A stretch of 43,035 nt of DNA, from the NCBI GenBank assembly GCA_002897935.1, contig BDTA01000094.1, positions 1 through 43,035 on the forward strand, given 5' to 3'. This stretch comes from a bacterium BMS3Abin08. GTDB lineage: Bacteria; Nitrospirota; Thermodesulfovibrionia; Thermodesulfovibrionales; JdFR-85. The first letter of the stretch is position 1. Every line of letters starts with the position of its first letter. Below the pieces are notes generated by a model that was given only the letters and a program-made list of their open reading frames with translations, made no database searches and was not told the origin of the DNA. Below are positions 16,297 to 34,150 of the stretch, in pieces. The translations under genes were made by a program, and so were the position numbers.

Positions 16297-16710
16297 GGAT
16301 TCTCTTGAGACCCCCACCTCCCTCCAGGCATCACGGAGCGTAATAATAATATCCAAAGCCCTTCGGAGCCTTTCAACGTCGGACGTAAGGTCGACAATGG
16401 AGACCTCTTTCATCAGGAAACAATACAACTCGCCAAGATTCCCTGCCACTTGTCCCCCTGCCTCGGCATCGATGCTGCCGTAAAGTCCCTCGATTATGGC
16501 AATCACCCGAGAAAGGGAGCGCGATTTCTCCGTCATGGCCCCGTCATTTATCGCCTTAATCGCCCGCACAAGAAACTCCACCATACCATCATAGAGCATT
16601 AATACAATGTCGAGGGGATGCAGAGGCTCCTCCCGGGACACATCACCTGTGGACCCCCGTTCCCTGAGATCAAGCGTTATATCCATCCACTCATCCTTCA
16701 TGAAATTCAC
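16294..16710 (-). CDS. fliS: FliS-family flagellar export chaperone (paralogue 1)
   Basis: 138 residues from GTG 16710; ATG 16701 is an alternative, and neither has a strong ribosome site. The FliS core is recognisable: PLDIVLMLYDGMVEFLVRAIKAINDG, then a middle helix with SIDAEAGGQVAGNLGELYCFL, and a C-terminal helix TLRDAWREV. FliS keeps flagellin unpolymerised in the cytoplasm and hands it to the export gate. Unlike the second copy at 31959, it has about 25 extra polar N-terminal residues and is not next to fliD. It has its own FliA promoter 61 bases upstream. It may serve another late substrate, or share flagellin. Confidence 0.82.
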   Translation of the reverse strand: MNFMKDEWMDITLDLRERGSTGDVSREEPLHPLDIVLMLYDGMVEFLVRAIKAINDGAMTEKSRSLSRVIAIIEGLYGSIDAEAGGQVAGNLGELYCFLMKEVSIVDLTSDVERLRRALDIIITLRDAWREVGVSRES

Positions 16711-17280: not shown

Positions 17281-17724
17281 CTATGGTTCACAACGGTTGT
17301 CAAGGCCATCTCTTACGGCAACAAGACCCTGGCGACCCTCTTTCAGCAGTGGCCTTATTTCATACTCTATCATGTCGGATACAGACACCCAGTCCTCTGA
17401 TTCAAAACAGGCGAGCATCTCTTTAAAGAGACCCGCTGACCTTTCCCAGCAAGAGATACTGTCAACAGGCACTTCCTGCCCACAACCCTCCAAATGCTTC
17501 AGTCCGTTAGTGAGTTCGCCTATGTACTGCACCAGGTATTTAAGGCCGTCCAAACCCTGCGACAGGCGACCGAAGACCTCTTCATCCTGACCAATCCTTA
17601 ATGCAGCAGCAGTCCTGCCCAGACTGTCATCGAGTTCGTCTATTATCTCCGGGATATCATCGAGGCTTTTCATTATCGCCTCTTTCAACTCCAATTCCCT
17701 GTTGTTTGCTCCTCTTTCCACCAT
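17281..17724 (-). CDS. Hypothetical alpha-helical protein in flagellar context
   Basis: 147 residues, no family recognised. GGAG lies seven bases before the ATG. The sequence is acidic and almost wholly helical, with heptad-like stretches (DDIPEIIDELDDSLGRTAAALRI; GLDGLKYLVQYIGELTNGL). There is no signal peptide or TM segment. It contains four Cys (CGQ, SCW, ACF, NRC) without a metal-site pattern. It lies between fliS paralogue 1 and the glycosyltransferase island, on the same strand, flanked on both sides by repeats and without a visible FliA promoter. A small chaperone- or scaffold-like role would fit the fold, but nothing specific can be claimed. Confidence 0.75.
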   Translation of the reverse strand: MVERGANNRELELKEAIMKSLDDIPEIIDELDDSLGRTAAALRIGQDEEVFGRLSQGLDGLKYLVQYIGELTNGLKHLEGCGQEVPVDSISCWERSAGLFKEMLACFESEDWVSVSDMIEYEIRPLLKEGRQGLVAVRDGLDNRCEP

Positions 17725-18196: not shown

Positions 18197-19894
18197 TCAA
18201 CCGGATACCACATCTTCCGTCAACTGTGGTGTGCCGGCCAACAACTCCAGGGATTCCAGGAGGATCCGTGCATGTTTTCTCAGGTCATTATAAAGAACCT
18301 GAGCACCTCCTGCAAGTGCTGCAATATCATCGCCCTCAAGACTCTCCATACCGTACCTGAACATCAGCAGCAGGGCTTTCAGGGGCGGATGCGAGTAACA
18401 GAGCTTCTCAATCTCCCCGTCAATCAAGGAAATATTCTTCCACAGCTCCCTGATAAGCGAGCCGTCTGCCCCTTCCTTACCTGACTCCCTCGATATGACC
18501 CCTATAACCGAGGATGCTGCGTCAGAGAGGTCCAGAAGTCCCTTAAGCGCCTTCCTCTCAACCGCGGTAAAACCGGCTATCTCCTCAGGATCCACATCAT
18601 ACCAAGCGAGCATCTTCTTCATCAGGGGGCTTAAAAACTCATCGGTACTCTCAGTGTCCTTCCGATCCAGTACAAGCTGCCATGATTTCCTGAAGAGTAT
18701 TATATAAAAAATCTCCTTGGTAAGCCTCCTCCTGATCAGGGGTTTATACTCGATCAGACCGTCACGGTCAAACATGGAACGGTAAACCTGTATGTCATCA
18801 TGGAACACAGATGGTTCGATAAACTCCATATCACCTCCGTCCCTAACCATTCTCGCAAGCTCATAAACCATATCAGGAGAGACCAGCCTCTTGCAGACCG
18901 GGTCCTTGCAGCCTGTCTTAAACCCGCAGGGACTGCAGGGGATCTCCGCCCTGATTACATAATGTCCATCTCCATAGGGACCGGTCTCCCTGAAATGAAC
19001 CGAAGCGAGTGAGATATTGATCGTCTTTGTACCAACGGCGGTTGCAATATGGAGGGGCCCGGTATCATTGCTGATGAAGAGGTTGCAGCTCTTTATCAAT
19101 GCGGCAAGCTCCTTGAGATCGGTCTTGCCGATAAAGTTCAGGCAGTCCGTCCTTATCAGTGACTCAAAGCTCCTCCCCAGTTCCGCCTCCTCCTTTGAAC
19201 CGGTAAGAACCACCTTTGCACCGAGTCTTAAGGAGAGCATCTCCGCTGTCTTTACAAAGGATTCCACCGGCCATCTCTTGTCCCCGGCGCTTGCCCCGAG
19301 CTGCAGCCCCACGACAAAATCACCTTCCGACAAACCTTCATTTCCGAGAAGATGATCGACCCAGTCTTCAATGTCTCTCGGCACTTCCAGGTACAGGCCC
19401 TTCCTTTCAGGCATAACGCCGCTGACCTTAAGGTGCATATCGCAGAGGTGAAAGGGATTGTAGTCCCTTGCCGGGATCACATTAAAGAAGTACCTGATCC
19501 AGGGGTGTCTCTTTACATTGTGGCCCTGTGGATCAATGCTGATTCCCCTTATCTCCCCTGCCCTTATCAGGGATGTAAGGACGGCGCTGTCCATGGAATG
19601 GGTGAAGTTGATCGCAAGATCATAAAAGGTATCGTTGATCACGGAGATTACCCCTTCAATGTGTCTGTAACATTCAATTATCCCCCCTTCCCCGAGGGCA
19701 TTCACAATATCGTTAATCTTGAGCGTAAAGACCCTGTCGATCAATGGGATGTATTTGCATATCTCAACAAAAGTCTCACTCACAAGAAGGGTGATCCTTA
19801 CCCCCGGGTACCTCTCCTTAAGCCCCATGATCACGGGGGTGCTCTGTATCAGGTCTCCCATGCGGGTCAGGTTGATTATGATCACCTCTTTCAC
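18197..19894 (-). CDS. Glycosyltransferase family 9 (heptosyltransferase-like) with C-terminal extension
   Basis: 565 residues, GTG start. The first ~350 residues are a GT9 enzyme: NLTRMGDLIQSTPVIMGLKERYPG at the N-terminus, LQLGASAGDKRWPVESF for the nucleotide-sugar domain, and SNDTGPLHIATAVGTKTI, the family signature. GT9 enzymes move heptose from ADP-heptose to LPS core or to proteins. A further ~200 helical residues without known domain follow (after CSPCGFKTGCKDPVCK). It ends the leftward island and follows the GT17-CgeB gene by ten bases. gmhA at 6410 could feed ADP-heptose synthesis. Transfer to a flagellin glycan is likely from context but unproven; LPS core is the alternative. Confidence 0.88.
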   Translation of the reverse strand: MKEVIIINLTRMGDLIQSTPVIMGLKERYPGVRITLLVSETFVEICKYIPLIDRVFTLKINDIVNALGEGGIIECYRHIEGVISVINDTFYDLAINFTHSMDSAVLTSLIRAGEIRGISIDPQGHNVKRHPWIRYFFNVIPARDYNPFHLCDMHLKVSGVMPERKGLYLEVPRDIEDWVDHLLGNEGLSEGDFVVGLQLGASAGDKRWPVESFVKTAEMLSLRLGAKVVLTGSKEEAELGRSFESLIRTDCLNFIGKTDLKELAALIKSCNLFISNDTGPLHIATAVGTKTINISLASVHFRETGPYGDGHYVIRAEIPCSPCGFKTGCKDPVCKRLVSPDMVYELARMVRDGGDMEFIEPSVFHDDIQVYRSMFDRDGLIEYKPLIRRRLTKEIFYIILFRKSWQLVLDRKDTESTDEFLSPLMKKMLAWYDVDPEEIAGFTAVERKALKGLLDLSDAASSVIGVISRESGKEGADGSLIRELWKNISLIDGEIEKLCYSHPPLKALLLMFRYGMESLEGDDIAALAGGAQVLYNDLRKHARILLESLELLAGTPQLTEDVVSG

Positions 19895-19904
19895 AGGCAG
19901 GTCC

Positions 19905-22544
19905 TCATTGCTTTACAAGGTATTGGTTCTTCATCTGGTTCATAAGTATAAAAAGCTTCTCAACCCTGGAAAGGTCCCCTTCACCCTCATGTATTCCCTC
20001 CACGATATCCTCAATACTCACCTCTGCCCTGTCAGCCAACCTCATCAGATACCTGCCGAGCTCGGAATCCTTTCCAGCCTTCTCCACCAGTTCCCGGACA
20101 TCCTCTCTACCGGACCTCCGGAGCGGCGGCTCGAATCCCGTCTCAACGATAAAATCCATCATCTCCTCCATCCTGTGCTCATAGGTGTGTTCCTTCCTTA
20201 CACGATCGGAAGCCCTCTTTGCTATCTCCTCCCTTTCCGCAGGGTTGTCAAGGTAATGCCCGACCTTTTTCCTTAAGTCATCGAGGCCGTTAAAGCATAC
20301 AATCTCTTCTCCTATCTTAAACATCTCCGGGATATACCGGCGGTAATCAACAAGCTGGAATCTCCCGCATGCTGCGATCTCGAAGGTCCTGGGATTAACA
20401 AAGTCCCCATAGGGGTTGACACCGTCATGGTATGCCGAGGAATGGAGATTGATGTTTATCTTTGTTGCATTGAAAATCCTCACTGTCTCCTCAGTGCCTA
20501 TCCTTTCACCATCCCTCTGAAGCAGAGCACCCACGGGGCCGCCCGTGTCCCATTCATTTCCCCAAATCCTGAAGTCAAAATCAAGGAGCCCCTCAAAGAA
20601 TTTCCGCCTGTTTCTGTATCCGGCACCGACAAAGGAGATATCACTTCCGTACTCCCCGATATCCTCCTCCGTCAGGTCCATCCCCCTGTGCACATCAGGT
20701 GAAGCAGCCATGGGGAGGTAATGAACACCTTGCCCCTTACGACCACTGAGTTCCCGGAGTATCTCCTCTTTCTGGATCGTAAAAAAGTAGTCATAGGACT
20801 GCGCAGCCCCCCGCCAGTACTCCATGCATCTGAAGTCCTCGACAAACCAGAATGCGGTCTTCAATCCTGTACCCCTGAGCCTCTCGATGCCCTCAGCCTC
20901 AAGCGGCGCCTGTGCAAGGGCAAACAGGAGATCCGGCTTCCACTCATCACACCTTGCAAGCACTGCCTCTGAGGCAAACCTCACAAAGGCAGTCCTGAGT
21001 GCCCCCTGATGCACCCCTTTGGATGTTATGGCATTAATGGAGTGGAATATGTCCCTATAGGCGCTGTTGTCGATATAATCAACCCTGTGACCAAGCCTCC
21101 TCAGGGCCTTCACACAGTACTCCGTCACAGGAAGAGAGCCGCCGTAGATGGGACCGACCACTGCTATCCTCAAGCCCCGTCTTATCTTCTTGATTACATT
21201 CAGCCTGTCCCGGACCCTCTCGAAGTATTCAGGGCTCAGCCTTACCGACGGGGTGTGTTCAAGGATGTCAAAACCCTCCTTAACAACCGGCAGGTTCCCA
21301 CCTGTTATAAACCTGACCCTTCCTATGACCTCCCTCAGATCCCTGTGCCTGAAGGCCTCCTTCAGGACATCAAGACGCGGCTCGAAAACCACGATTTCAC
21401 TCTCCGTCATCCTGCATAACCTCTCAATGTGATAACCAAAGGCAAAACCGAACACGCAGAGCACCTGCGATCCGTCTACTGCATCCCTGTAATGAGCGGC
21501 CCATACACCGGCCTCCTCCGACGGCCTGTAGAGGCTGTGAAGGGTCAGGCCGACGACGCGCAACGTCTTCTCACCATTGCGCGCATCAAACACCCGGCAA
21601 TCGCCTGTTCCTATTGCCTCCTTAAGAAGCAAGACCAGTTCAGGATCCACCTCTTTCAGGGCCTCCATATTCCCGGTAAATATTGAGCCCGGTTCAATCT
21701 TCTCATCATCAAAACCGGGAGATAGTGCGCACTTGTCATTCCCCGACAGCCCCCTGTTCCGTGCAACAGGCATTTTACCCGAATCGCCGTCGGACTCTTT
21801 AATAAGATGTCTGAACTTAGCGAGGTTCTTAAGCAGGTAGCAGGGATAGACCTTGTCAAAACCAACAAACCGGTACGTGTACCCCCTGTCAAAGGGGTCC
21901 TTACCTCTTTCAATCTTTTCCTGAAGCCTGGTGATATCCTTATAATATGAATTATCAACCTCCGCATGGGAAAAGGATTCAATCTTTTCTATTATCTTTT
22001 TCACGCCCCCGAGATAGGAAAAATGCCAGCCCCCGCAATCTATTTCCGGAAGAGCCTCCCTCAGATCCCTTATATCCTGAGGGGTTGAAATATGCTTATA
22101 CCCGATCATAACCGTCCCGTTCCAGGAGACTTCCGCCTGACAGTTGAGATAGTAGTAGTAGAGTCTCTGTTTAAACACCTTTGCACCGCCGGACATGTTC
22201 CTGACCACCCCCTCCGGTGAGGGTATTTCATCGACATCCGATATCAGGATTGTGTCCCCCTGATCACAATCTTCAAGCCCCCTCATGATAGCGTTTCTCT
22301 GATATATCTCCCGCTGCCACCGATTCTCCGTAACCGGCATATCGTCCACTATTACATGTATTATCCTGTCCCGGAAGGCTTTAAACCGACCTTTGTTTTT
22401 CTGGTAACAGAGTTCCTTCTTCTTTCCGCTGAATGTCTCTGTGGACTCAACAAGTACAAAAAAGTCCACCACATCGCTCAGCTCATGAAGCCTGATCTCC
22501 AGGAGATCAAGCTCATCAAAAAATATAAAGGTATCGTATATCAT
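19905..22544 (-). CDS. Three-part glycosyltransferase: GT17 + MAF-like domain + CgeB-type GT
   Basis: 879 residues. Part 1 (about 1-280) is GT17-like, with FFVLVESTETFSG, the W-x-RE-x-x-QRNAI region and an ISDVDEIP metal motif (DxD). Family 17 includes eukaryotic beta-1,4-GlcNAc transferase III and many bacterial proteins. Part 2 (about 310-460) has LHSLYRPSEEAG, CVFGFAFGYHIERL and EIVVFEPRLD, like the N-part of MAF/DUF115 flagellin-modification proteins. Part 3 (about 470-790) is CgeB/GT1-like with the C-terminal NPRTFEIAACGRFQLVDYRR and REEIAKRASDRVRKEHTYEHR. Parts 2 and 3 are shared with the protein at 25606. A helical tail (790-879) ends it. The fusion implies two successive sugar transfers in one polypeptide. 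Confidence 0.88.
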   Translation of the reverse strand: MIYDTFIFFDELDLLEIRLHELSDVVDFFVLVESTETFSGKKKELCYQKNKGRFKAFRDRIIHVIVDDMPVTENRWQREIYQRNAIMRGLEDCDQGDTILISDVDEIPSPEGVVRNMSGGAKVFKQRLYYYYLNCQAEVSWNGTVMIGYKHISTPQDIRDLREALPEIDCGGWHFSYLGGVKKIIEKIESFSHAEVDNSYYKDITRLQEKIERGKDPFDRGYTYRFVGFDKVYPCYLLKNLAKFRHLIKESDGDSGKMPVARNRGLSGNDKCALSPGFDDEKIEPGSIFTGNMEALKEVDPELVLLLKEAIGTGDCRVFDARNGEKTLRVVGLTLHSLYRPSEEAGVWAAHYRDAVDGSQVLCVFGFAFGYHIERLCRMTESEIVVFEPRLDVLKEAFRHRDLREVIGRVRFITGGNLPVVKEGFDILEHTPSVRLSPEYFERVRDRLNVIKKIRRGLRIAVVGPIYGGSLPVTEYCVKALRRLGHRVDYIDNSAYRDIFHSINAITSKGVHQGALRTAFVRFASEAVLARCDEWKPDLLFALAQAPLEAEGIERLRGTGLKTAFWFVEDFRCMEYWRGAAQSYDYFFTIQKEEILRELSGRKGQGVHYLPMAASPDVHRGMDLTEEDIGEYGSDISFVGAGYRNRRKFFEGLLDFDFRIWGNEWDTGGPVGALLQRDGERIGTEETVRIFNATKININLHSSAYHDGVNPYGDFVNPRTFEIAACGRFQLVDYRRYIPEMFKIGEEIVCFNGLDDLRKKVGHYLDNPAEREEIAKRASDRVRKEHTYEHRMEEMMDFIVETGFEPPLRRSGREDVRELVEKAGKDSELGRYLMRLADRAEVSIEDIVEGIHEGEGDLSRVEKLFILMNQMKNQYLVKQ

Positions 22545-22650
22545 GACCTTACAGTCCCCGGCAACGGCATATCACCCATCTGAATCAGGCAGTTACCGGC
22601 CCGCAATATATACCGTGCATATAAATTATGCATACCGGGCGGTTTCAAAG

Positions 22651-22690
22651 CACCTTGCCGAAAGCCCCGACCTTTGGTCGGAGAGCTCGA
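22651..22690. repeat. GGTCGG palindrome repeat, second location
   Basis: CACCTTGCCGAAAGCCCCGACC and TTTGGTCGGAGAGC, the same unit as at 17106-17209, in the 162-base gap between the GT17-fusion start and the GT2 stop. Confidence 0.7.
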
Positions 22691-22706
22691 CTCCGTTTTT
22701 GCCCTC

Positions 22707-23546
22707 TTATACCCAGGCCTCCACGATGCCTCTCAACCCGCAGGCTTTCTCAGCAAAGCCGCTGTCAACGAGTATCCTGTAATAAAAGTTCATAAAATCT
22801 CCGATAAAAGGATACGTGTTTTTATCTTTCACTTCAGAGATGACGTCAAATGTCTTTTCAAATTGCGGCAGGGATTCTTCTATCCTGCCTGTTTCAAAAA
22901 GGGTCATTGCCAACTTATAATTTGCATATATATTGTCCGGATCGGATTCTATCCACTTTCGTAAAATTCCGATATTTCTTTCATGCTTACCTGTGGCATT
23001 GAAGGAGAGGTGTCCATAATGCCTTAGATGAATATCTACTACCTCAGGCTTATATCCCGGCCAGTTTCTATACACCGATTCACAAATACTTTCATGAACA
23101 TGGTTTCTAAATCTGATTCCGGGGTCGTTTCTGAATAATCTCATTACCTTAACCTGTCCGACACCACCATTATCATACAAGTTGTCCTGCCATATAATAT
23201 ACGCCGGTTTATTGTTTATCCTGCAAGCTTTCTCTATAAGCAGCTTCGCATTCTTATCATACAGAACCTCATCGCAATCAATATTCAGGATCCATTTGTA
23301 TCTTGCCTGTTCAACCCCAAAATTCTTGGCCTTTGAAAAGTCATCACACCATTGAAATTCAAAAGTCCTGCATCTGAATTTCCCGGCAATTTCGACGGTA
23401 TTATCATGAGACCCTGTATCAATAAAGACGATCTCGTCAGCAATGCCCGTTATATGTCTTAAGGTCCGGTTAAGAATATTCTCTTCGTTCTTAGCTATTA
23501 CAACAACCGATAATCCGTCTTTCAGTTTTGACATTTTTGCCTTCAT
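22707..23546 (-). CDS. Glycosyltransferase family 2 with C-terminal TPR-like helices
   Basis: 279 residues. GT2/WaaE-like: LSVVVIAKNEENILNRTL, EIVFIDTGSHDNTVEIA and LNIDCDEVL (DxD-type metal site). A late GHLSF...KHERNIGILRKWI segment is typical of the bacterial proteins that join GT2 to TPR units. The C-terminal YANYKLAMTLFETGRIEESLPQFEKT is one TPR. The start overlaps the stop of the sulfotransferase gene as ATGA (23543-23546), so it is translated with it. It probably adds a hexose or heptose to the same glycan; the donor is unknown. Confidence 0.9.
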   Translation of the reverse strand: MKAKMSKLKDGLSVVVIAKNEENILNRTLRHITGIADEIVFIDTGSHDNTVEIAGKFRCRTFEFQWCDDFSKAKNFGVEQARYKWILNIDCDEVLYDKNAKLLIEKACRINNKPAYIIWQDNLYDNGGVGQVKVMRLFRNDPGIRFRNHVHESICESVYRNWPGYKPEVVDIHLRHYGHLSFNATGKHERNIGILRKWIESDPDNIYANYKLAMTLFETGRIEESLPQFEKTFDVISEVKDKNTYPFIGDFMNFYYRILVDSGFAEKACGLRGIVEAWV

Positions 23547-25345
23547 TGTATCTTACAATCAAGAATCTTTTCTCTCAACTCCAGTGCATCTTCTCTATCA
23601 GGCTCAAATATAAGGATTTTTTCAAGATCCTCCATGGCCTTATCCAACAGGCCAAGCCCACAGCACACTTCCGCACGTTTTAAAAGGACATTGATATCAA
23701 CCGGGTGAAGAGCTAAATACTCTTCAAGCAACTTCTTTGCCTTGTCAAGATTCCCTGCTTCAATGGCGGTCGTTACAGCACCGTCCAATCTCCGAACCTC
23801 AACCCCCGCCTTCTGTGCCTTTAACAGATATTGAAATACAAAGAGGTCCTTTAACTCCTCGGGGGTAAGCCCCCTCAAAGAGACCCTGCCAAAGGATATC
23901 TCGCCTGAAAGGGGATCTTTTAATAAATTATATGCCGGATCAATATTGGCAGTCAGCCCTGTAAGCTCAAACCCGGCATCTGCAAAGAGCTCTTCCATAT
24001 CTTTTTTAGTAAAAAATCTCAGATGGGTCCTATCAAGGATGCCGGAGTCTTCATATTTCCAGTATCCTTCAACCAGCATATTTATAATGCTATAGAATCT
24101 GATATTTGGAATACTCGCCACAACAACACCTGAAGCAGAAAGACTCTTCCTGAGTTTTCTTAATGTGGATAGAGGGTCTTTCAGATGCTCCAGTATGTCC
24201 GCTAAAATTATGCAATCAAAATATCCCTCACTAAACGGAAGTTCAATTTCTTCTATATCTCCACATAAAACCCCTGTCAGATTTTTTTCAGCTCTTTCGC
24301 ACACATCCGGGAAAATATCTACGCCAACTACTTCACCTGCACCCTTCTCCAAAAGCCTTCTGCCAAGGTAACCCTCTCCAGAGCCCACATGCAGGATTCT
24401 CTTTGCATCTTCCGGGATTATAGCCTCTACATCCTTTAGTTCAGCATGAAGGTAGTCAGCAGCCATTGAGTCTGTAGATGATATAGTTGATGATGGATTT
24501 AACGGTTTTATCCGGGGATTCGGCTGTTCCTTTTGCAATTGCATCCTGATATCATCAAATGTCTTTGTGATTGATTCATCAACACTATCTCTTGTAGAAC
24601 ATTCATTAAAAAGATGGTTCAACACAGAAACTACAGGGGCAATGTTATTACCAATAAAGTTGCCGTCAAAGTTATGATGTTTCATCTCCGGGTCTATAAA
24701 AGATTCTATTTCTTCCTTTACCTCCGGAAACGATCTTGATAGCTTGATATCTAAAGTACAGGTAATTTTGTCTATAACCTGTTTTGCATCCTTTAGCAGA
24801 TCATCATACCTTGAGAAGGTCCTTGGATAACCTCTGCTATAGTATTCTGCATTCAACATATATTTCATCCATAAATGCATCGATTTTCCAATGGAAAATC
24901 CATTTCTTTTTTTTAATGAATCAGCAACTTCCAATGGATTTCTTACAGAAATAATATAATGAGGTTTTAGGTTTAGTTCTTCAAATATTTTTTTCCAGAA
25001 AGGGAGTAATATACATAGGCGTGAATCCTTTATACCAAAAACCTCCGGTTTTTTAAATTCTTTGGCTATATTCTCTATTATTTCTTTTTTATAAACATTT
25101 AAACACTTTTGATTCCACCAATCTTCTGAAAACGAAAACAGATCATGCCATGATGAATTTAAACTCCTCAATATCTTTTCATTTACCTGCACTATGCTAT
25201 TATTTTCAAAAAATCCTTTTGGATTATCTTTCGCAGGATTCATTAAGTTTGAACCCAACTTTACACCCAAAATATTCAATACACCCATAAGAGTTGACGT
25301 CCCACTTCTATGCATTCCCAAAACTATTATACAGTCTTGCTTCAT
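23543..25345 (-). CDS. Sulfotransferase - SAM methyltransferase - TPR fusion
   Basis: 600 residues, ATG with GAGAGGGG upstream. Domain 1 (about 1-250) is a P-loop sulfotransferase: GMHRSGTSTLMGVL at 10-23 (5'-phosphosulfate loop) and ISVRNPLEVADSLKKR (3'-phosphate region). Domain 2 (about 315-470) is a class I methyltransferase: ILHVGSGEGYLGRRLLEKG, VVGVDIFPDV, FDCIILADILEHLKDP. Domain 3 (about 525-600) has two TPR-like helix pairs. It would use PAPS and S-adenosylmethionine to add sulfate and methyl groups, plausibly to the flagellar glycan, with the TPRs holding the partner. The sulfotransferase half is clearly more AT-rich than its neighbours, suggesting separate acquisition. Confidence 0.9.
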   Translation of the reverse strand: MKQDCIIVLGMHRSGTSTLMGVLNILGVKLGSNLMNPAKDNPKGFFENNSIVQVNEKILRSLNSSWHDLFSFSEDWWNQKCLNVYKKEIIENIAKEFKKPEVFGIKDSRLCILLPFWKKIFEELNLKPHYIISVRNPLEVADSLKKRNGFSIGKSMHLWMKYMLNAEYYSRGYPRTFSRYDDLLKDAKQVIDKITCTLDIKLSRSFPEVKEEIESFIDPEMKHHNFDGNFIGNNIAPVVSVLNHLFNECSTRDSVDESITKTFDDIRMQLQKEQPNPRIKPLNPSSTISSTDSMAADYLHAELKDVEAIIPEDAKRILHVGSGEGYLGRRLLEKGAGEVVGVDIFPDVCERAEKNLTGVLCGDIEEIELPFSEGYFDCIILADILEHLKDPLSTLRKLRKSLSASGVVVASIPNIRFYSIINMLVEGYWKYEDSGILDRTHLRFFTKKDMEELFADAGFELTGLTANIDPAYNLLKDPLSGEISFGRVSLRGLTPEELKDLFVFQYLLKAQKAGVEVRRLDGAVTTAIEAGNLDKAKKLLEEYLALHPVDINVLLKRAEVCCGLGLLDKAMEDLEKILIFEPDREDALELREKILDCKIQ

Positions 25346-25462
25346 TTAGCCCCTCTCGAATTAAATATTTGGTATCTGTAGTTCCATACTAAAGTATTTT
25401 AGGCCTAACCTTGCAAATTATATAACGCATCAGGTCTATCAGCCTTGATAAGTTATTTTATT

Positions 25463-25608
25463 TAGAGTCTGTGTATAAATTACAGTCATTTGTCATTCCC
25501 GCAATCCCGAATGCATTCGGGAGCCGGGAATCGTTCTTTAAGAAGGATTCCGGACAAGCCGGAATGACGGAATAACGACAACTGTTCGACATTTATACAC
25601 AGACTCTA
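25463..25608. repeat. TA-flanked inverted-repeat element, copy F; overlaps a stop codon
   Basis: Left end TAGAGTCTGTGTATAAAT, right end ATTTATACACAGACTCTA. The interior holds CCCGAATGCATTCGGG and GGATTCCGG...CCGGAATGAC palindromes. On the minus strand its last three bases are the TAG of the MAF-CgeB gene. The remainder of 25346-25462 shows only the upstream region of the sulfotransferase gene, with no promoter I can assign. Confidence 0.85.
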
Positions 25609-27294
25609 TTTATACCTGTTTTTCATAAAGTGAATCATGCTGTTAAGCCTGTGTCTGTATGTGTGTTCCCTGAGAATCCTCTCTCTGCCCTTTCGGGCGA
25701 TTACTTCCCTTTCTTTTGGATTGCGGAGATAAAACCTCAATAGATCGGGAATCTCACCCCTGTCTCTGTAAGTGACAACCTCTTTCCCTACATCAAAGAG
25801 TTCCTCTATCGCCTCCTGGTGGTCTGTCAGGAGAAAACTACCACATGCCGGAACATCAAAGACCCTCTGGTTTACAGATCCCAACATCTGAAGGCTTGTG
25901 GCATTAAAGTTTATCTTACAGGCATTATAAAAGACGGGGAGTTCATTGTAATAGTGCAGAGGGGGCTCAAGCCCGTATCCATCAGGCAGCAACTCCTTCC
26001 ATTGTTTATCTCCATAGATAACAGGGCTGAACTCTCTCAAAGCCTTTATACAGGAGAGGCGATAAAGCAACGTCGCCCTCCAGAGGACAGCAGCCTCGAA
26101 ATCAAGCTTTTCTTGAACCAAGAGGGAATTAAACATACCCAAATCTTCCCTTTTCAGAGTTGCCAGTACCGCATCAAAAAAAACCCTCTCTGAACTCAGA
26201 AGCAGTGATATCTTCTCAATGAGGCAATGGAGCCCTCCCGGAACCTTCTTCATGCTCTCCATTGCCGGGACCACCATGGAGTTGCCCACAAAAGCAACAT
26301 CGCACTGACTGCAACCGGGGCCTATCCTCCTGCCCCTTGCAGGCCTGAAGACCCTGTCGTCTGTGGCAAGCGGGAGGTATCGGACTGACTCAAAACCCAT
26401 TGCCTCCATATCCTGTATATACGCCCTGTCCCATAAAAAGAGGGAGACATAAGGGGATACATTTCTGTCAAAGGCCCTGACAATAAGGTTGGGACTGTCT
26501 ACGTACCATGATGCCAACGGCATATCTATTGATTTCAGGAAGGAGGTCAATACCCCATCCTCATCAAGACCTAAATGATTTATGGCAAGAATAAAATCAG
26601 GCTTAAACCTCAGTATCCCGTCAATCAACATAGAGACAACAACCTCACCGCTGTCTCCCTTGCTTACCGGCACCTTTATAACCTTATGGCCGAGGCGTAC
26701 AAGTGCACGCTCTATCTCACGGGTCAGGAAATAGCCAAAGTCAATCATTACAACACTGATGACATCTTCCCTGAACTTGGGATACCGCAATCTATCCCAC
26801 AGTTTTACAGCGATTGTGTTCTTCAATGAGGCAAAAACGGAATTATAGTAACCAGGGAAGGCAGACATGGCTGAGGACAGTGGAAAAACCTCTAACGGGA
26901 CCATCCCGAGCCTTACCTGATGTCTCGTGATCTCTTTAATCGCCTCTTTTAAAGGAAGACCAACCATGAATGTAATTCTTCCAGCAAGCCCGGATATCAC
27001 CCCATGCTCCTTTGCAAGCTCATATATCCCCGGCATTGCCTCGACCACCAGAATCTCCGCCTCAGGGAACCGCTGCACCAACTCCTTCAGATGATAACCA
27101 AGCCCCAGACCCAGGACCACCAGAATCCCCCTGCCGTCAAACCGAAAGGCATCAACAACGGCCGTTGCCTCGGCCTCCGGGTCATAGAGGCTGTGGAGGG
27201 TCTTTATTGATCCGTTATCACAGGTAACCCTTAATGAAAACTTACCGCTTTTTGTCGTCACCATAGATATATTATGAGATACAGATACCGGCAC
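25606..27294 (-). CDS. MAF-like domain + CgeB-type glycosyltransferase
   Basis: 562 residues, GTG start one base after the GT4 stop, with AAGGA eight bases upstream. The N-terminal part has LHSLYDPEAEA, VVLGLGLGYHLKELV and EILVVEAMPG, a pattern shared with part 2 of the protein at 19905 and with DUF115/MAF flagellin-modification proteins. The C-terminal part is CgeB/GT1-like: NQRVFDVPACGSFLLTDHQEA and REVIARKGRERILREHTYRHRL. MAF proteins attach nonulosonic acids to flagellin in other bacteria. Here the role could be recognition of the acceptor plus sugar transfer, which is inferred. The stop codon lies in the end of a dispersed repeat. Confidence 0.87.
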   Translation of the reverse strand: MPVSVSHNISMVTTKSGKFSLRVTCDNGSIKTLHSLYDPEAEATAVVDAFRFDGRGILVVLGLGLGYHLKELVQRFPEAEILVVEAMPGIYELAKEHGVISGLAGRITFMVGLPLKEAIKEITRHQVRLGMVPLEVFPLSSAMSAFPGYYNSVFASLKNTIAVKLWDRLRYPKFREDVISVVMIDFGYFLTREIERALVRLGHKVIKVPVSKGDSGEVVVSMLIDGILRFKPDFILAINHLGLDEDGVLTSFLKSIDMPLASWYVDSPNLIVRAFDRNVSPYVSLFLWDRAYIQDMEAMGFESVRYLPLATDDRVFRPARGRRIGPGCSQCDVAFVGNSMVVPAMESMKKVPGGLHCLIEKISLLLSSERVFFDAVLATLKREDLGMFNSLLVQEKLDFEAAVLWRATLLYRLSCIKALREFSPVIYGDKQWKELLPDGYGLEPPLHYYNELPVFYNACKINFNATSLQMLGSVNQRVFDVPACGSFLLTDHQEAIEELFDVGKEVVTYRDRGEIPDLLRFYLRNPKEREVIARKGRERILREHTYRHRLNSMIHFMKNRYK

Positions 27295-28542
27295 TTAGCT
27301 GTTCCTTTGCTGGTTTGCATAGATGGATTTATATTCTTTCTCATAAACATACGCCTCCTGTTCCACAGTCGGTATTATGTAGTTTTTTATATTATTTTTC
27401 AGCACATTTAGTATCTCCGGGTTGTTTATCAACATCTCAAGAGTTTCTTTCAAATGCCCGGATTTGCCTAATTGAAAAGTAAAACCATTGATCCCGTTTT
27501 TTATTTTTTCAGCCATCCCTCCAACATTAGAAGCTATTACCGGCACATTACAGGCAAGTGATTCATGCAATACCAGCGGATAATTTTCATACCAGAGTGA
27601 AGGTACGATAACAACGTCGACATTAGCAAGGATGTCCCCGATCTGGTTCTCGGAAAACACACTACAGAACTCGATCCTCTTATCATCCTTAGCCACATCC
27701 TTGATTGCATCGACATACAGCTGGTCGGTCCCTGAACCATACACTTTAAGAGAAACACCGTCTGCAGTTACCCTTTTAAAGGCGTCTATAAGAACATGAA
27801 CACCTTTATGATGATTAAACGACCCACCGTAAAAAAAAGTAAGCCTATCCTGTTTTTTATAAACTTTTTTGTTCTTTTTAATTTTCCCGTAGCTCATACC
27901 GTGATTTACAATGCCTACATTAAGATCTCTGATTTCTCTTCTAAACATGCTTGAAACGAACCTGGATGGAGATACAACCCTTTTTGCATCAAACAAAACA
28001 CCTCTTGCCGACTTTATTCTTTGAACAACTAATTCCCCTGGAATTTCAGGACAGAGTTTCCGACAGGCATCTCCATTCTCTGCACCTGCACATAAATCGC
28101 CTTCAGAAGTAAATAAAACAGCCTTGGGGCAAAGCAGCCAAAAATCCGTAAGTGTTGCGATATAGGGTATCCCGAACGACCTTACAACCTTTACAAATTC
28201 GCCTACTCTCATAGAATGCCCAACATGGACTATGTCCGGTTTTTCATTTGAAATTAAACTCTCCGCTGCCTCGGCCATGTCTTTATTTTGTAAACCATAC
28301 CCCAAATCCCCGGGAATTTCCTTATGCCTCAAAGCCACCACCGGGATTCCTTTATATAAAAATTCCTTAATCAGGATACTTCCATCACTCCGATCATAAA
28401 ACGAGTCCCCGTAAAAACTGTACGTGACAACCTTTACCTTATGTCCCAGCATTTGCATCATCATCGCCATGTTTAATACAAACTTCTCCGTCCCGGTATA
28501 ATACTCAGGATAAAACTGATGCACCAAATAAAGGACCTTCAT
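27295..28542 (-). CDS. Glycosyltransferase family 4
   Basis: 415 residues. The N-domain shows HQFYPEYYTGTEKFVLNMAMMM, typical of GT4/GT1 GT-B enzymes. The C-domain has LTFFYGGSFNHHKGVHVLIDAF, VVIVPSLWYENYPLVLHESLACNVPV (with the EX7E-like pair) and ASNVGGMAEKIKNG. A cysteine-bearing insert (CAGAENGDACRKLC) is seen in the relatives that carry LLCPKA just before it. It uses an unknown nucleotide sugar, retaining mechanism. It lies two bases downstream of the methyltransferase-GT2 gene and abuts the next gene, so it is part of one transcript. Confidence 0.92.
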   Translation of the reverse strand: MKVLYLVHQFYPEYYTGTEKFVLNMAMMMQMLGHKVKVVTYSFYGDSFYDRSDGSILIKEFLYKGIPVVALRHKEIPGDLGYGLQNKDMAEAAESLISNEKPDIVHVGHSMRVGEFVKVVRSFGIPYIATLTDFWLLCPKAVLFTSEGDLCAGAENGDACRKLCPEIPGELVVQRIKSARGVLFDAKRVVSPSRFVSSMFRREIRDLNVGIVNHGMSYGKIKKNKKVYKKQDRLTFFYGGSFNHHKGVHVLIDAFKRVTADGVSLKVYGSGTDQLYVDAIKDVAKDDKRIEFCSVFSENQIGDILANVDVVIVPSLWYENYPLVLHESLACNVPVIASNVGGMAEKIKNGINGFTFQLGKSGHLKETLEMLINNPEILNVLKNNIKNYIIPTVEQEAYVYEKEYKSIYANQQRNS

Positions 28543-28544
28543 AT

Positions 28545-31070
28545 TTAAACCCCCACGGTCAACTCTCTGTTGAAATCTTTTAATATTTCCTTTCTTTTGC
28601 TGTCAGGAGTTTTCAGATAACAGTATGCTGAATGTGCTCCCACCTGATATGCAAACGCCTTATAAATGCACGACTTGAAATCCTCAAGCAGATGGTCATC
28701 TATTAAATCATAGGTGTTTCTCATATACTCAAAGGCCGAACCGATAAAACCCTGCATCGCTTGAACAAGAATACTGTTAGAGGACCATTGATTTCTTTTG
28801 CTCTCATACCGGGAACAGATCCTGCCCAAAAAAGACCTGAATTCATTATCAACATATTGATTGTCAGCTACGCCGGCAGAGGCAGGATATCCATACTTCA
28901 CGGCCCTCTCAAATCTTTGAATAAAGATACCGGTAAAGGCCCCCATATTACAAGGGATATTTATAGCGCTTAGTTCTTCAGTTATAAGAGAACTTACAGC
29001 ATTGTACGTAAAAATAATATCCCTCATAAAATTCTCTATCCCAAGGGATACAGACGGCATTGGAAGGTCCGGGAAAATAGTCGCCAGGGACAAAGTGTCT
29101 ACGTACGCCCTCTTCAGGTGATAATATGCCGGTCTATTGTGAGAATGAATAACAGATGTAGAACCGAGAAAAGCAATTTTGAGGCCATCTCTTATAAGCC
29201 TTATCCCGAGATCCAGATCCTCTGCATAGTCGCGCCTGAACTTATACTTCTCAAAAACACTCCTCAATATAAGACAGGCTATATCAGATAACTGCCCGTT
29301 CTTTCTTAACGTTACGTAATTCTCCACCTCTGGTCGTGATAAAAGCCTGTCCCTTACATCCACCTCTAAAAATCTATAATGGTTCCGGGAGATAATCCTG
29401 TAGAACAAATCCGCATCCTCCCGTGGTGATTCCATACATGAAACAGCAACAGCTTCATTATTCTGTAATGCATTCAACATCTCATAAAGCCAGAAATCAG
29501 ATGACGGTAAGGCATCCTGAGTCATGAAAAGTATATACTTTCCAGAGGCTAACCCGGCTCCAAGGTTTCTTGCATAAGAATGGGAAAACCTCTCAGGGGT
29601 GATTTCCACTAACCTTGCATCGTGTTCTTTCACAAGTTCAAGGGTCTCATCGGTACTCCCCGAATCTACTACAATAACCTCTATATCCTTAATTCCTTTC
29701 TGGTTCCTGAGCATGGGCAGAAGAGTTACCAGGTCATTACCCGCATTTAATGTTGGTATTATAATAGAGACGGTCGCATCATCTGTGGGTTCTATTCTTT
29801 TCTCTTCGACATCCATCAAAGATATCTGTGGAACTTTAATATCTTTTTCACCTGTCAGGACCTTCAGCGTCTCAGACAACATTGCAAGGTTTGCCTTGGC
29901 CTCTTCATTGTCAGGATCAATTTCAAGTGCTTTTATAAAACAACCTCTGGCAGCATCATAATCTCCGGATTGAAAACCCAATACTCCGAGGTTGTTCAAT
30001 GCATCGGTGTTTTCGGGGTTTAACGACAGGGCTTTCTCAAAGAAACTTCCGGCACTCTCTATTAATCCGAGAGCGAAGCATAACTCACCTGTCTCCACTG
30101 ATAGTTTTGATGAACCCGCTTCCTTTTCAAGCCGCTTCAGTACCTTTCCCAGCGCCGGCAACACACCTTGTATTTTTTGTATCGAGCCCGACATCTCTTG
30201 TATGGTTGCTTCGAGGCCGGCGATTTGATCATTCTTATCCTGGATAACTGATTCAAAGCCGGCGATTTGATCGGTCTTATCCTTGATAACTGCTTCAAGG
30301 TCGGTGATTTGATCATCTTTATAGCAAATGAGGGTGTTGGAGATGTCTACAAGATGAGAGTTCCCTATGGCCCTGTCATGTTCCAAGACACAATCCGAGA
30401 CAACTGCTATAAAATACCTCGCCATCTTCTTTTCAGGTGACAAAAAATAAAACCCTTCATCACCTTTCTTTATCATAAAGTCTCTTGAAATCGTTGCGCC
30501 TTTATAAAGGGGGAACATATTTGAAGAAGAATAAACATTCTGACCATAAAAGAGGATATTCTTGAAGTTAGCGGTTAGGAGATTCTCAAACTCATCAAAA
30601 CCGAGTTCTTTAACATGGAATGGATTCTCGTATCCCGGTTCATCAGAATATACAGTCTTGTTAGGCGTTGAAACTATAAAGACACCCTCTTTTTTAAGCA
30701 ACCTCTTTGTCTGCTTCATTAATTCATCGTGTCCGGCTATATGCTCTAATGCCTCAAAGCAGACTATGACGTCAAACAGGCCCTCTCCCTCTACCGGCAC
30801 TTCCATCATAGAGCCTTTAATGAACTGAAGATTACCCCTTATATACTTGGAAGTGGCATGTCTTATAGCTGCATCATCTATGTCCACACCTAATACGGAA
30901 CCGGCATCCTCAGAGAGCATGAAACTCCCGTATCCCTCTCCGCATGCTAAATCCAGGACCTTTTTGTCTTTTACTAATTCCTCAGCAAACCTGTACCTGT
31001 GCAGGTGTTCATAATTTATTACCGGGTCTTTCTCCCACGGTACAAACCTCTCTCCCGTCGATTCAAGCAT
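28545..31070 (-). CDS. Methyltransferase - coiled coil - TPR - GT2 fusion
   Basis: 841 residues from ATG 31070 with AGGAG eight bases upstream; ATG 31091 is the longer option. Order: class I methyltransferase (about 30-200; VLDLACGEGYGSFML, LGVDIDDAAIRHA, FDVIVCFEALEHI); a coiled coil (about 245-290) made of three 14-residue repeats DQIxxLExxIxDK; TPRs (about 320-410; NTDALNNLGVLGFQSGDYDAA); and GT2 (about 430-680; VSIIIPTLNAGNDL, EVIVVDSGSTDETLEL), followed by a ~150-residue helical tail. It could methylate and extend the same glycan while the TPR binds a partner. It is the first large gene of the island, 53 bases after the TPR fragment. Confidence 0.9.
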   Translation of the reverse strand: MLESTGERFVPWEKDPVINYEHLHRYRFAEELVKDKKVLDLACGEGYGSFMLSEDAGSVLGVDIDDAAIRHATSKYIRGNLQFIKGSMMEVPVEGEGLFDVIVCFEALEHIAGHDELMKQTKRLLKKEGVFIVSTPNKTVYSDEPGYENPFHVKELGFDEFENLLTANFKNILFYGQNVYSSSNMFPLYKGATISRDFMIKKGDEGFYFLSPEKKMARYFIAVVSDCVLEHDRAIGNSHLVDISNTLICYKDDQITDLEAVIKDKTDQIAGFESVIQDKNDQIAGLEATIQEMSGSIQKIQGVLPALGKVLKRLEKEAGSSKLSVETGELCFALGLIESAGSFFEKALSLNPENTDALNNLGVLGFQSGDYDAARGCFIKALEIDPDNEEAKANLAMLSETLKVLTGEKDIKVPQISLMDVEEKRIEPTDDATVSIIIPTLNAGNDLVTLLPMLRNQKGIKDIEVIVVDSGSTDETLELVKEHDARLVEITPERFSHSYARNLGAGLASGKYILFMTQDALPSSDFWLYEMLNALQNNEAVAVSCMESPREDADLFYRIISRNHYRFLEVDVRDRLLSRPEVENYVTLRKNGQLSDIACLILRSVFEKYKFRRDYAEDLDLGIRLIRDGLKIAFLGSTSVIHSHNRPAYYHLKRAYVDTLSLATIFPDLPMPSVSLGIENFMRDIIFTYNAVSSLITEELSAINIPCNMGAFTGIFIQRFERAVKYGYPASAGVADNQYVDNEFRSFLGRICSRYESKRNQWSSNSILVQAMQGFIGSAFEYMRNTYDLIDDHLLEDFKSCIYKAFAYQVGAHSAYCYLKTPDSKRKEILKDFNRELTVGV
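30205..30330. repeat. Three tandem 42-bp units inside the methyltransferase-GT2 gene
   Basis: Units 30205-30246, 30247-30288 and 30289-30330 share the core CCGGCGATTTGATC..TCTTATCC. Each encodes 14 residues (two heptads) with DQI/GLE/VIQDK spacing, so copy-number change would lengthen the coiled coil by whole turns without a frameshift. Confidence 0.85.
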
Positions 31071-31123
31071 GGTTCTTTCTCCTGACAACATACCCGGCCG
31101 TTTTCCAACCCGGTCGATTACGA

Positions 31124-31348
31124 TTACTCCGGATTTGTTCTGCTTTGTCTGAAATCCGCACTCTTTAACTCTGAAAGCTTCCTCAAGTTTTCCAGCGCCT
31201 CGGTGAAATCGCTCTTCAATGAAACAGCGATCTTAAAGCAATTCTCCGCCTCAGCAAGCATCCCCATAGAAAACAATACGACACCCAGATTATTCCAGTT
31301 CTCATAGTTCGGAGTGCAGTTCGGAAGGAGAGACAGATAGAATTTCAA
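31124..31348 (-). CDS. Short TPR-repeat protein or gene fragment
   Basis: 74 residues from TTG 31348 with no ribosome site. The reading frame stays open upstream only to a TGA at about 31394. It has one clear TPR, NYENWNNLGVVLFSMGMLAEAENCFKIAVSLK, then a polar tail. It resembles the TPR segments found between methyltransferase and GT2 domains in the next gene. Its poor start and isolated single TPR suggest the 3' remnant of a longer gene, perhaps with a frameshift near 31395, where an ATG in another frame is present. The gap 31349-31563 shows nothing else recognisable. Confidence 0.4.
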   Translation of the reverse strand: MKFYLSLLPNCTPNYENWNNLGVVLFSMGMLAEAENCFKIAVSLKSDFTEALENLRKLSELKSADFRQSRTNPE

Positions 31349-31563: not shown

Positions 31564-31962
31564 TCAGATGCTAACTGATACTCTTTTACCTGTTTTATCC
31601 CAGGAGAGCGGCTTGCAAAAGCCCTTCTTTAGCTTATTTACCGCACTTAGCTTCCCGAGGGTTGAATCCATTTCCCCCCTGATGGCAGCCGTTATCTCTC
31701 TGTCGACAGAGAGGATTTCGGTCAGCAGGTCTCTTATGTTGCAGGAAATATTTTCCGCAGTATCTGATATCTTTTCCCCTGAATTGTCAAAAAGTCCGCC
31801 CTTAAGACTTGAAATGTCAACTTTTTGAATCCGATCTGCTACAGCCCTCCTCTTTTCCTGCAAATCAAGGGCATCCTCTACCCTTTCGTTTCTGAGCGCC
31901 TCCCTCTGGCATTTTGCAAGGTCGAGGAGTTCCTTTAAAAAACCCAAGACAGCGTTTTTCAT
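31564..31962 (-). CDS. FliT-like flagellar chaperone
   Basis: 132 residues from ATG 31962, which overlaps the fliS stop as ATGA. Entirely helical, with LGFLKELLDLAKCQREALRNERVEDALDLQEKRRAVADRIQKV, the pattern of FliT/FlgN-type export chaperones, and a basic C-terminus. FliT binds FliD and, in enterics, FlhDC. FlgN, which serves FlgK/FlgL, is the alternative, but the position right after fliD-fliS favours FliT. The similarity is of fold type and place rather than clear sequence, so no symbol is given. Confidence 0.7.
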   Translation of the reverse strand: MKNAVLGFLKELLDLAKCQREALRNERVEDALDLQEKRRAVADRIQKVDISSLKGGLFDNSGEKISDTAENISCNIRDLLTEILSVDREITAAIRGEMDSTLGKLSAVNKLKKGFCKPLSWDKTGKRVSVSI

Positions 31963-32375
31963 ACCCTGACCCCCATCCCTAAAGGCCGGCCTTCCACAGC
32001 AGGCCTGCAATGCTGATTCTTTTCAATATCCTTCCATGCATCCCTCAGGACATCGAGGACCTTTATTGCAACATCCATTGCATCCCTGTCATTCCTCATA
32101 TTTGCATGAAAGAGCCTGTCAAGGATAAAGTCATACAGCCTCTTGAGATTCGGGGAGATCTCCCCACCTGTCTCCATGTCGAGCGAACTTGAAAGCTCAC
32201 CGACTATGGAAGTAGCCTTCCCGATATACAGCCCCTTCGAGACAATATCCCCATCCTCAATACCCTGCAATGCCATCCGCATGAAGCTGATTGCTCCGTC
32301 ATAGAGCAAAGAGACTATCCTCACCTTGTCGGAAGTATTGATCTCCACCCTTCTGTACTCCATCGCACTGTTCAT
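31959..32375 (-). CDS. fliS: Flagellar export chaperone FliS (paralogue 2)
   Basis: 138 residues. VRIVSLLYDGAISFMRMALQGIEDGD, the SIVGELSSSLDMETGGEISPNLKRLYDFI segment and the final helix VLDVLRDAWKDI are classic FliS. It binds flagellin in the cytoplasm and prevents early polymerisation. AAGGAGGT lies eight bases before the ATG. It follows fliD by 20 bases and overlaps the FliT-like gene, the usual fliD-fliS-fliT order. It is the canonical copy, against the divergent one at 16294. Confidence 0.93.
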   Translation of the reverse strand: MNSAMEYRRVEINTSDKVRIVSLLYDGAISFMRMALQGIEDGDIVSKGLYIGKATSIVGELSSSLDMETGGEISPNLKRLYDFILDRLFHANMRNDRDAMDVAIKVLDVLRDAWKDIEKNQHCRPAVEGRPLGMGVRV

Positions 32376-32395: not shown

Positions 32396-33769
32396 TTATG
32401 TCATCCTGCTTGTAAGATTTGACAGAAAAGCACTCTGGGAACTCATCCCCGTAAGCATTGCCTCCAGCGATGCAAACCGTTTTCTAAGGTCCTCCTCCAC
32501 GAGAGTCAAGCGGGCCTCGAGGTCGGTAATATCATCTGCAATACCGGTTACATTTGACTGCAGGCCCTTTGTCCTGATCGTAACCGTTCCGTCGATGGAG
32601 TTGGTTACACTGTCTGTATAGTCATAGACTTTATTCCCTATACCCGATGTCGAATCCGTAAAGAGATTTGCAACATCATCGAGTCTGGTTGTAAGTTTAT
32701 CATTAAGGGTGGCGGAGTCGATAGAGAGATGACCCGTATGGTAATCGGTAGAAATTCCGATCTGGGCAAGGGTCCTGAGATCCTGAGGAAGACCCGCAAC
32801 CCTGCTCGTAACGATGTTGCTGAGCCTGCTCTTTATAGCACGGGCGGTTGACTCTCCATTCAGTGGCCCGCCCGTATGGGTCTTTGTGTCATACTGTGAG
32901 TTGTTTGAAATATTGTCCACCACCTCGTTATATGCATTCACAAAGTCCTCGATATGCTGCCTGATGGTATCCGTATCATTGTTGACCGTGACGGTCACTG
33001 CGCTTGCAGACTCCGCCTTCAGGGTTAAGGTCACACCAGGTATCACATCCGACACGGTATTTGAACTCTTTGTTATATCCACACCACCGATCCTGAACTT
33101 TGCATCCTGAGCCGTGCTTGCGGTAAAGTCACTATCCGAGAAGCCTGTAATTGTTGTATTGGCTGTTACGGCGACAGTATTGGAGGAACCTGTATTCCGA
33201 CCTGTCAGCACCAGCCTGTAGTCACTGGTACCCACGTTTATGACGGTTGCTGTAACTCCGGGGTTGCCTGTATCGTTGTTGATAGCATCACGAAGGCCTT
33301 CGAGTGTCGTCTGATCGGCAATCGTAAGGGTACTTGTCGTACCTGCATAGGTATATTCAAAGGTCTGAGAAGCACCGGTGTTATTTACCACATCCGTAGT
33401 TGATGTAAAGGATGTGGTGCCCGTCCTTCTGTCGACTGCTGCAAGTTGAATCTTCCCCGCCACTGAATGTGGGTCAATGGTGTATATACCCGAAGAGGCG
33501 GAGTTGCTTGTGGCGGCATCCAACACCGTACTGTTGCTTACGGATGCAGTCTTGGCATAAAAGTTAGCCGTATTTCTCAAGTTATCGGCAGCACTCTGGA
33601 ATGAGGAGAGCTTTGACGATAATGTACTGTACGCACTGATCTTATTATTGTAGTCGGACTGTCTGCTCTGAAGCCTGTAAACAGGCTGCCTTTGCAGCTC
33701 GATGAGACTGGATATCAACTTGTTATAATCAATACCCGATGTTAGCCCTATTCCGCTGATAACCGACAT
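32396..33769 (-). CDS. fliD: Flagellar filament cap protein FliD
   Basis: 457 residues. N-terminal D0 region: SGIGLTSGIDYNKLISSLIELQRQPV, then a long coiled coil with SAYSTLSSKLSSFQSAADNLRN. The central beta-rich region is Thr/Ser-rich. The C-terminal coiled coil ends IADDITDLEARLTLVEEDLRKRFASLEAMLTGM, which pairs with the N-terminal helix. It caps the growing filament and guides flagellin folding. AAGGAGG before the ATG overlaps the flaG stop. Its length is typical of short FliDs. Confidence 0.95.
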   Translation of the reverse strand: MSVISGIGLTSGIDYNKLISSLIELQRQPVYRLQSRQSDYNNKISAYSTLSSKLSSFQSAADNLRNTANFYAKTASVSNSTVLDAATSNSASSGIYTIDPHSVAGKIQLAAVDRRTGTTSFTSTTDVVNNTGASQTFEYTYAGTTSTLTIADQTTLEGLRDAINNDTGNPGVTATVINVGTSDYRLVLTGRNTGSSNTVAVTANTTITGFSDSDFTASTAQDAKFRIGGVDITKSSNTVSDVIPGVTLTLKAESASAVTVTVNNDTDTIRQHIEDFVNAYNEVVDNISNNSQYDTKTHTGGPLNGESTARAIKSRLSNIVTSRVAGLPQDLRTLAQIGISTDYHTGHLSIDSATLNDKLTTRLDDVANLFTDSTSGIGNKVYDYTDSVTNSIDGTVTIRTKGLQSNVTGIADDITDLEARLTLVEEDLRKRFASLEAMLTGMSSQSAFLSNLTSRMT

Positions 33770-34131: not shown

Positions 34132-34150
34132 CGATCTCTCCATCTAAAGG

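Follow-up and report, generated by a model that had tools for sequence, protein, structure and literature searches.

The block of glycan genes beside the flagellin gene in the 43,035-nucleotide stretch analysed here (the window) consists of two layers: a core (g562, a methyltransferase-TPR unit, the C-terminal part of g879, g565 and w147) that is conserved across phyla, and variable cassettes of low GC content that have been exchanged. This is very probably a cytoplasmic, nonulosonate-independent locus for O-glycosylation of flagellin with species-specific decoration, in which we infer flagellin to be the acceptor. A sequence-only reading of the window had proposed a flagellin-glycan island lacking pseudaminic and legionaminic acid (Pse/Leg) genes and possibly making a heptose-based, sulfated glycan; synteny, co-occurrence and the lack of a true NeuB anywhere in the genome give good support to the Pse/Leg-free island, and less can be said for heptose and sulfation. 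The division into two layers was invisible to that reading, and it is the conserved core, rather than the sulfate, that is of more interest.

The host is a deep-branching bacterium known as an assembled genome alone (123 contigs, 96% complete). In order of transcription, and all on the minus strand, the window carries fliC, flaG, fliD, fliS, fliT, g848, g415, g562, g600, g279, g879, g565, w147, fliS2 and genes for a response regulator, an HD-GYP regulator, a PilZ protein, motA and motB, the island genes lying on one strand between fliT and the mot genes (features given below are on the minus strand unless otherwise stated). The flagellin encoded by fliC (34192–35034) is 280 aa long and has D0/D1 domains only (PF00669/PF00700), with a central stretch of ~54 residues containing 14 Ser/Thr. 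The names of flaG (33772–34143), fliD (filament cap, 32396–33769) and fliS (flagellin chaperone, 31959–32375) follow the earlier reading, gene position and homology to genes of relatives, in which flaG homologs also come after fliC; FliS is in addition homologous to the Pfam-confirmed second FliS-type chaperone, fliS2 (16294–16710; PF02561 90.2 bits, TIGR00208 74 bits, above cut-off), which is encoded downstream of w147. The fliT-like gene (31564–32010) matches PF05400 at 23 bits, below the cut-off of 29.5, and as listed begins at a TTG inside fliS, with an ATG at about 31962. Genomes G110, G233 and G347 likewise have a FliS-like gene downstream, either of the core or of the methyltransferase. 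Elsewhere in the window, a CheW-CheZ fusion protein (35385–36644, plus strand) adjoins fliC, and an SIS-domain protein of the GmhA/DiaA type (6410–7012), below the GmhA cut-off, overlaps ruvC.

The island had been described as seven large genes next to fliC-flaG-fliD-fliS-fliT at 18197–31348. Seven such ORFs were indeed found after fliT, all on the minus strand, at 18197–31091, the remaining 31092–31348 holding only a short TPR-coding remnant (31140–31348, between fliT and g848) with no intact reading frame when the sequence was read by eye, which may be what is left of a cassette that was replaced. At least six sugar-transfer domains had been counted; seven score above the Pfam gathering threshold, namely, from g565 to g848, GT9, GT17 plus DUF3880/Glyco_trans_1_2, GT2-TPR, DUF3880/Glyco_trans_1_2, GT4 and GT2. 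The two methyltransferases of the earlier reading correspond to Pfam methyltransferase domains in g600 and g848, and TPRs are present in g279, g600 and g848. The Pfam scan of the seven proteins detected no lipid-carrier export or oligosaccharyltransferase family, and no sugar-nucleotide genes.

We compared the islands of ten relatives, selected because their flagellin shares roughly 70% identity or more with that of the window. Their 3' half is mostly ordered g562, MTase-TPR (the methyltransferase-TPR unit), g879core, g565, while the 5' half differs. The exceptions concern MTase-TPR, which was not seen in the pieces fetched from G110 nor between g562 and g879core in G008, and is divergent in G086; the contig of G113 ends before that region. 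The N-terminal fusion partner of MTase-TPR is a sulfotransferase in the window, GT2 and GT4 domains in G019 and a CgeB-type GT in G078 and G011, and the fusion of GT17 to g879 was found in the window and G110 among the relatives compared. GC content is 0.38–0.42 in g848, g415, g600 and g279, and 0.48–0.51 in g562, g879 and g565, the latter being similar to the flagellar genes. Since the fusions vary and the GC content of the cassettes lies below that of the core, the cassettes seem to be insertions around a core that was already in place. The island of G089 (L079 6623–15861) includes an APS kinase, radical-SAM proteins, a DegT aminotransferase and an E1/transketolase pair, a gene set that would fit unusual sugar chemistry; no sulfotransferase was found in it.

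The conserved layer begins with g562 (25606–27294), which combines a Maf-N-like part with a DUF3880/Glyco_trans_1_2 (CgeB-type) GT and aligns with its homologs at 46–72% identity. The same Pfam architecture is seen in g879core (19905–21698; ~600 aa, 48–56% identity), the conserved part of g879 (19905–22544), whose N-terminal part (21699–22544; GT17, PF04724) is a variable fusion. The Maf-like parts that the sequence-only reading noted in two proteins fall short of threshold singly (22.5 and 21.5 bits against 23.5, PF20157) and are recurrent in homologs, with 9/9 homologs of each protein matching the PF20157 Maf N-domain at E<=0.01 (best E 5e-11 and 1e-5 for the two proteins). A structural model of g879core built from 39 rows (pLDDT 90.8) places a GT-B domain at residues ~171–525, for which the best fold match is BshA (GT-B; Z 26.1, rmsd 3.1, 316 aligned); Maf structures are absent from the fold matches listed, which span residues 171–525. 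Searches against PDB sequences gave 0 matches for g879core and no GT match for g562. Two g562-like pieces lie at contig ends elsewhere in the same genome (L189 2–2113, L191 2–907), one of them adjoining a radical-SAM/B12-binding/TPR protein, and are perhaps a single paralog split by assembly.

The remaining core proteins are g565 (18197–19894), comprising a GT9 catalytic part (PF01075, 97.4 bits against a cut-off of 22) and a C-terminal extension of ~200 aa, and w147 (17281–17724), encoded downstream of g565. Cysteines at positions 320, 323, 329 and 334 of g565 are invariant in 10 aligned sequences, and the nearest PDB sequences are those of a GT9 of known structure, 3tov (E 1e-34), and WaaF/WaaC. 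Neither Pfam nor NCBIfam matches the uncharacterised w147, which is modelled as a four-helix bundle (pLDDT 92.6) and for which a fold search returned generic helical bundles only; its alignment shows a conserved C-terminal stretch, DW...DLIEYEL.P, and its homologs have the GT core on one side and fliC or motility genes on the other. The w147 homologs in L112, L117, L119, L120, L132 and L139 carry an extra N-terminal ~80 residues of unknown fold.

The core is widespread in the phylum Nitrospirota. Among 395 genomes of this phylum, 129 match the g879core profile at E<=1e-60 and 132 the g565 profile at E<=1e-50; both are found in 126, with g565 within 1 kb downstream on the same strand in 124 of these and on a different contig from g879core in the remaining two. 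Relatives of the core are also found in about ten other phyla, several of them adjoining fliC. A wider scan of named genomes confirmed 95 loci, of which the best 80 come from records titled Nitrospirota/Nitrospirae, Nitrospinota, Desulfobacterales, other deltaproteobacteria, Calditrichaeota, LCP-89, Zixiibacteriota, Latescibacterota, Electryonea, Hydrogenedentota, Cloacimonadota and others. An ORF scan of these best 80 loci gave a core match above 300 bits in 76 and, downstream of it, a g565-like gene in 66; a w147-like gene turned up in 38, and the flank that was fetched included a flagellar gene in 33, the last figure being low partly because contigs are short. Some long core loci, from records titled Nitrospinota and Hydrogenedentota, also have no flagellar gene in the flank, and the family may therefore have other acceptors.

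Within Nitrospirota the association with flagellin is close. Counting co-occurrence from the genome listings of both searches (129 core-positive genomes, 395 in total), we found flagellin at E<=1e-24 in 204 genomes, 127 with the core and 77 without; among the other 191 the core was present only in G203 and G213, both times near a contig end. In 42 of the 51 core-positive genomes with a listed flagellin position, the flagellin is on the same contig as the core, always on the same strand, and the 6/6 loci fetched from family f29 are ordered GT9, g879core, g565, w147, fliC. These data bear on the alternative that LPS, capsule or exopolysaccharide is the product of the island, its adjacency to fliC reflecting chance or co-regulation and g565 being an LPS heptosyltransferase. 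That GT9 is the LPS heptosyltransferase family, that the genome encodes HldE and seven other GT9 matches besides g565, and that some distant core loci are without a flagellar gene all speak for it. We nevertheless consider it highly improbable, as flagellin is present in 127/129 core-positive genomes, mostly on a shared contig and strand; the core is missing from genomes of the same family with long flagellins; the NCBIfam scores of g565 stay far under all equivalog cut-offs for LPS heptosyltransferases (at best 94.7 bits against 170.2); and the other GT9 genes could serve LPS. LPS or capsule as the main target was rejected on these grounds.

The flagellins that accompany the core are short. 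All 51 core-positive genomes with a listed flagellin, from 21/21 genera, have flagellin frames of 276–319 aa, compared to 5 of 53 core-negative genomes listed with a short flagellin; the corresponding Fisher test (2.5e-24, uncorrected) covers listed genomes only, 51 of the 129 that are core-positive, and left out five core-negative genomes with short flagellins in family f4 (G038, G058, G077, G085 and G093). A recount within the order found short flagellins in 10/10 core-positive and 7/43 core-negative genomes (Fisher 1e-6, uncorrected), omitting ten genomes with only weak, FlgL-like matches; one of the seven is G113, whose contig ends before the core could show, and G064 was scored by its 637-aa frame, a divergent 270-aa frame also being present. 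Within family f1, the long-flagellin genomes G006, G030 and G070 are without the core, while seven with short flagellins carry it. Mapped onto a tree of 52 flagellins, the core label requires 4 changes, and after dropping G113 there are only 2 independent pairs on starred branches and 3 on all branches. Core and flagellin type are inherited together, so that the association with size lacks phylogenetic independence; the idea of repeated co-evolution, drawn from the core always accompanying a short flagellin, was rejected because changes and independent pairs on this tree are few. Speaking against the flagellin reading, short flagellins also occur without the core, and that of B. subtilis is likewise described as having no outer domains (PMC8306008).

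G233 and G347 have short flagellins and no GT core, and keep the methyltransferase domain directly after fliS. FliB methylates flagellin side chains in Salmonella, and it could be proposed that here too the flagellin protein itself is the main target, with MTase-TPR methylating its side chains and the GT genes having a partly separate function. The arrangement in G233 and G347 and the place of MTase-TPR in the conserved set both favour this proposal. However, the methyltransferase of G233 is itself fused to a GT4 domain, and because methyltransferases are fused to GT domains in several relatives a sugar substrate is likelier; we regard side-chain methylation as the main function as quite unlikely. 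The methylation suggested earlier is plausible, and MTase-TPR belongs to the conserved part.

The variable layer includes g848 (28545–31091; methyltransferase, TPR and GT2, GC 0.42), g415 (27295–28542; GT4, GC 0.40) and, among the low-GC genes, g279 (22707–23546; GT2 and TPR), which weakly resembles the SunS peptide S-glycosyltransferase family (TIGR04195, E 1.3e-14, 53.9 bits against a cut-off of 350). In g600 (23543–25345) the two layers meet: the C-terminal part (23543–24487) is the MTase-TPR unit conserved in most relatives, while the N-terminal part (24488–25345, GC 0.33) is a variable sulfotransferase-type domain. The latter corresponds to the sulfotransferase noted from the sequence: it reaches 17.4 bits against PF17784 (cut-off 22.8) and is supported by its motifs and by a G008 island protein that is 38% identical over 203 residues (E 2e-38) and matches Sulfotransfer_3 at 1e-16. 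Homologs in L077 and L063 score above the Pfam cut-off, the window copy below. In three aligned sulfotransferase-type sequences RSGTS is invariant and RNPxEVA conserved, which we take to be the P-loop and the 3'-phosphate motif of PAPS-dependent sulfotransferases. As a single sequence this part had 0 matches among PDB sequences, and a profile of the three rows weakly matched solved sulfotransferases (E 3e-4). Among the 11 islands compared, clear sulfotransferase domains are present in the window, G008 and G110, with weaker candidates in G102 (E 9e-7) and G086 (E 4e-5); in G110 (L063 591–2804) two tandem domains together with TPRs lie directly after fliT. This sporadic occurrence ruled out sulfation as a hallmark of the island.

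A sulfated glycan, as suggested previously, is plausible given the domain and an APS kinase in the genome, although as a variable add-on. The APS kinase lies outside the island, beside ManC (GDP-mannose genes) and a NusG paralog (L188 285–3357), which suggests another sulfated polysaccharide locus. Heptose may be considered on the basis of the GT9 family label, and HldE is present in the genome, but the LPS equivalog scores of g565 lie below cut-off, and HldE is absent (E<=1e-30) from 8/129 core-positive genomes, four of which are 96–98% complete. One alternative is that a glycan does exist but is unremarkable, with no sulfate and no heptose, the sulfotransferase-type domain being inactive or acting elsewhere. 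This is compatible with our best explanation, and we put its likelihood a little below even. In its favour are the restriction of clear sulfotransferase domains to 3/11 islands, the divergent, low-GC and sub-cut-off window copy, the neighbours of the APS kinase, and the lack of HldE in some core-positive genomes; against it are the intact RSGTS and RNPxEVA motifs, the tandem domains of G110 and the strong APS kinase on the island contig of G089.

The absence of a Pse/Leg pathway appears to extend from the island to the whole genome. There is no true NeuB in it, the best matches being partial (E 4e-13 and 3e-10) and apparently of the DAHP-synthase type, and the Pse/Leg route thus appears absent. 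Strong NeuB matches occur only in relatives G086 and G040 (E 1e-71 and 4e-84 for the two). PF01973, the MAF/MptE-like catalytic domain, was found in 0/12 genomes, and among 14 control genomes in four archaea only. A canonical Maf system was ruled out on these grounds, namely the lack of a true NeuB in the host's genome and of PF01973 in the 12.

As the simplest account, we propose that soluble cytoplasmic enzymes would glycosylate newly made 280-aa flagellin stepwise, ahead of its export. g279, g848 and g600 probably hold the flagellin through their TPR parts, by analogy with a known system discussed below, while g562 and g879core (Maf-N-like/GT-B) together with the GT9 g565 would build a conserved inner glycan that the species-specific GTs, the two methyltransferases and the sulfotransferase-type domain would extend and cap; w147, modelled as a small helical bundle and encoded close to the GT core, could serve as a chaperone or adaptor. 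The sugars and their linkage, the sequence of the steps and the roles of the TPRs and w147 are all inferred. A bolder version, which we hold tentatively and at somewhat less than even probability, is that g562, MTase-TPR, g879core, g565 and w147 form a machine for flagellin glycosylation that has gone unrecognised, needs neither nonulosonic acids nor canonical Maf and is spread over ~10 phyla, and which travels with flagellins that have lost the outer D2/D3 domains and supplies a sugar coat (sulfated in some species) in their place, with w147 as its dedicated adaptor or chaperone. Among the papers searched, none mentions flagellin glycosylation together with CgeB, or DUF3880 together with flagella or flagellin. 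The position of the core beside unusually small flagellins in several phyla suggests a widespread, little-studied form of flagellar sugar-coating; if the core does modify flagellin, it would represent a second widespread system in Nitrospirota and other environmental phyla, and outer-domain size would be linked to glycosylation.

Well-studied flagellin glycosylation often uses pseudaminic or legionaminic acid and Maf enzymes. The window shares with this system a Maf-N-like domain, in two enzymes, and a step that is likely to be cytoplasmic and to precede export, as described for Maf1 in Aeromonas, where flagellin is glycosylated in the cytoplasm before export (PMC4065374); it differs in lacking PF01973 and a true NeuB, and in having a catalytic part of the GT-B, DUF3880/CgeB type. 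In Caulobacter FlmG, which adds pseudaminic acid, a TPR part binds flagellin (PMC7591256). A TPR joined to a transferase is likewise seen here, and the window TPRs may also bind flagellin; unlike in FlmG, they are carried by GT2 and methyltransferase proteins. The BAHT/TibC protein heptosyltransferases contain a four-cysteine cluster, with a spacing of 2-15-11 in TibC (PMC4358343). As a heptosyltransferase-type GT with a four-cysteine cluster, g565 is similar, and a protein acceptor is plausible, but its spacing is 2-5-4 and TibC is absent among its PDB sequence matches at E<=1.

Precedents for acidic sulfur groups come from flagellin, in the sulfonated, taurine-containing glycan of C. difficile type B (PMC5207245), and from surface glycoproteins, in the sulfated N-glycans of Halobacterium (PMC11980604), although the former involves taurine and no sulfate ester, and the latter is archaeal N-glycosylation, unlike what is proposed for the window. 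The authors of a study on C. jejuni link its sulphation genes to proteins or glycans, capsule and LOS among them (PMC8743553). Flagellin glycosylation islands are described for a-type P. aeruginosa, between flgL and fliC, and for Campylobacter (PMC8306008). Like these, the island in the window groups numerous glycan genes together, next to those for flagellin; unlike them, it has no sugar-nucleotide genes, in a genome with no true NeuB, and instead contains a Maf-N-like/GT-B pair together with a GT9, a combination that recurs across phyla.
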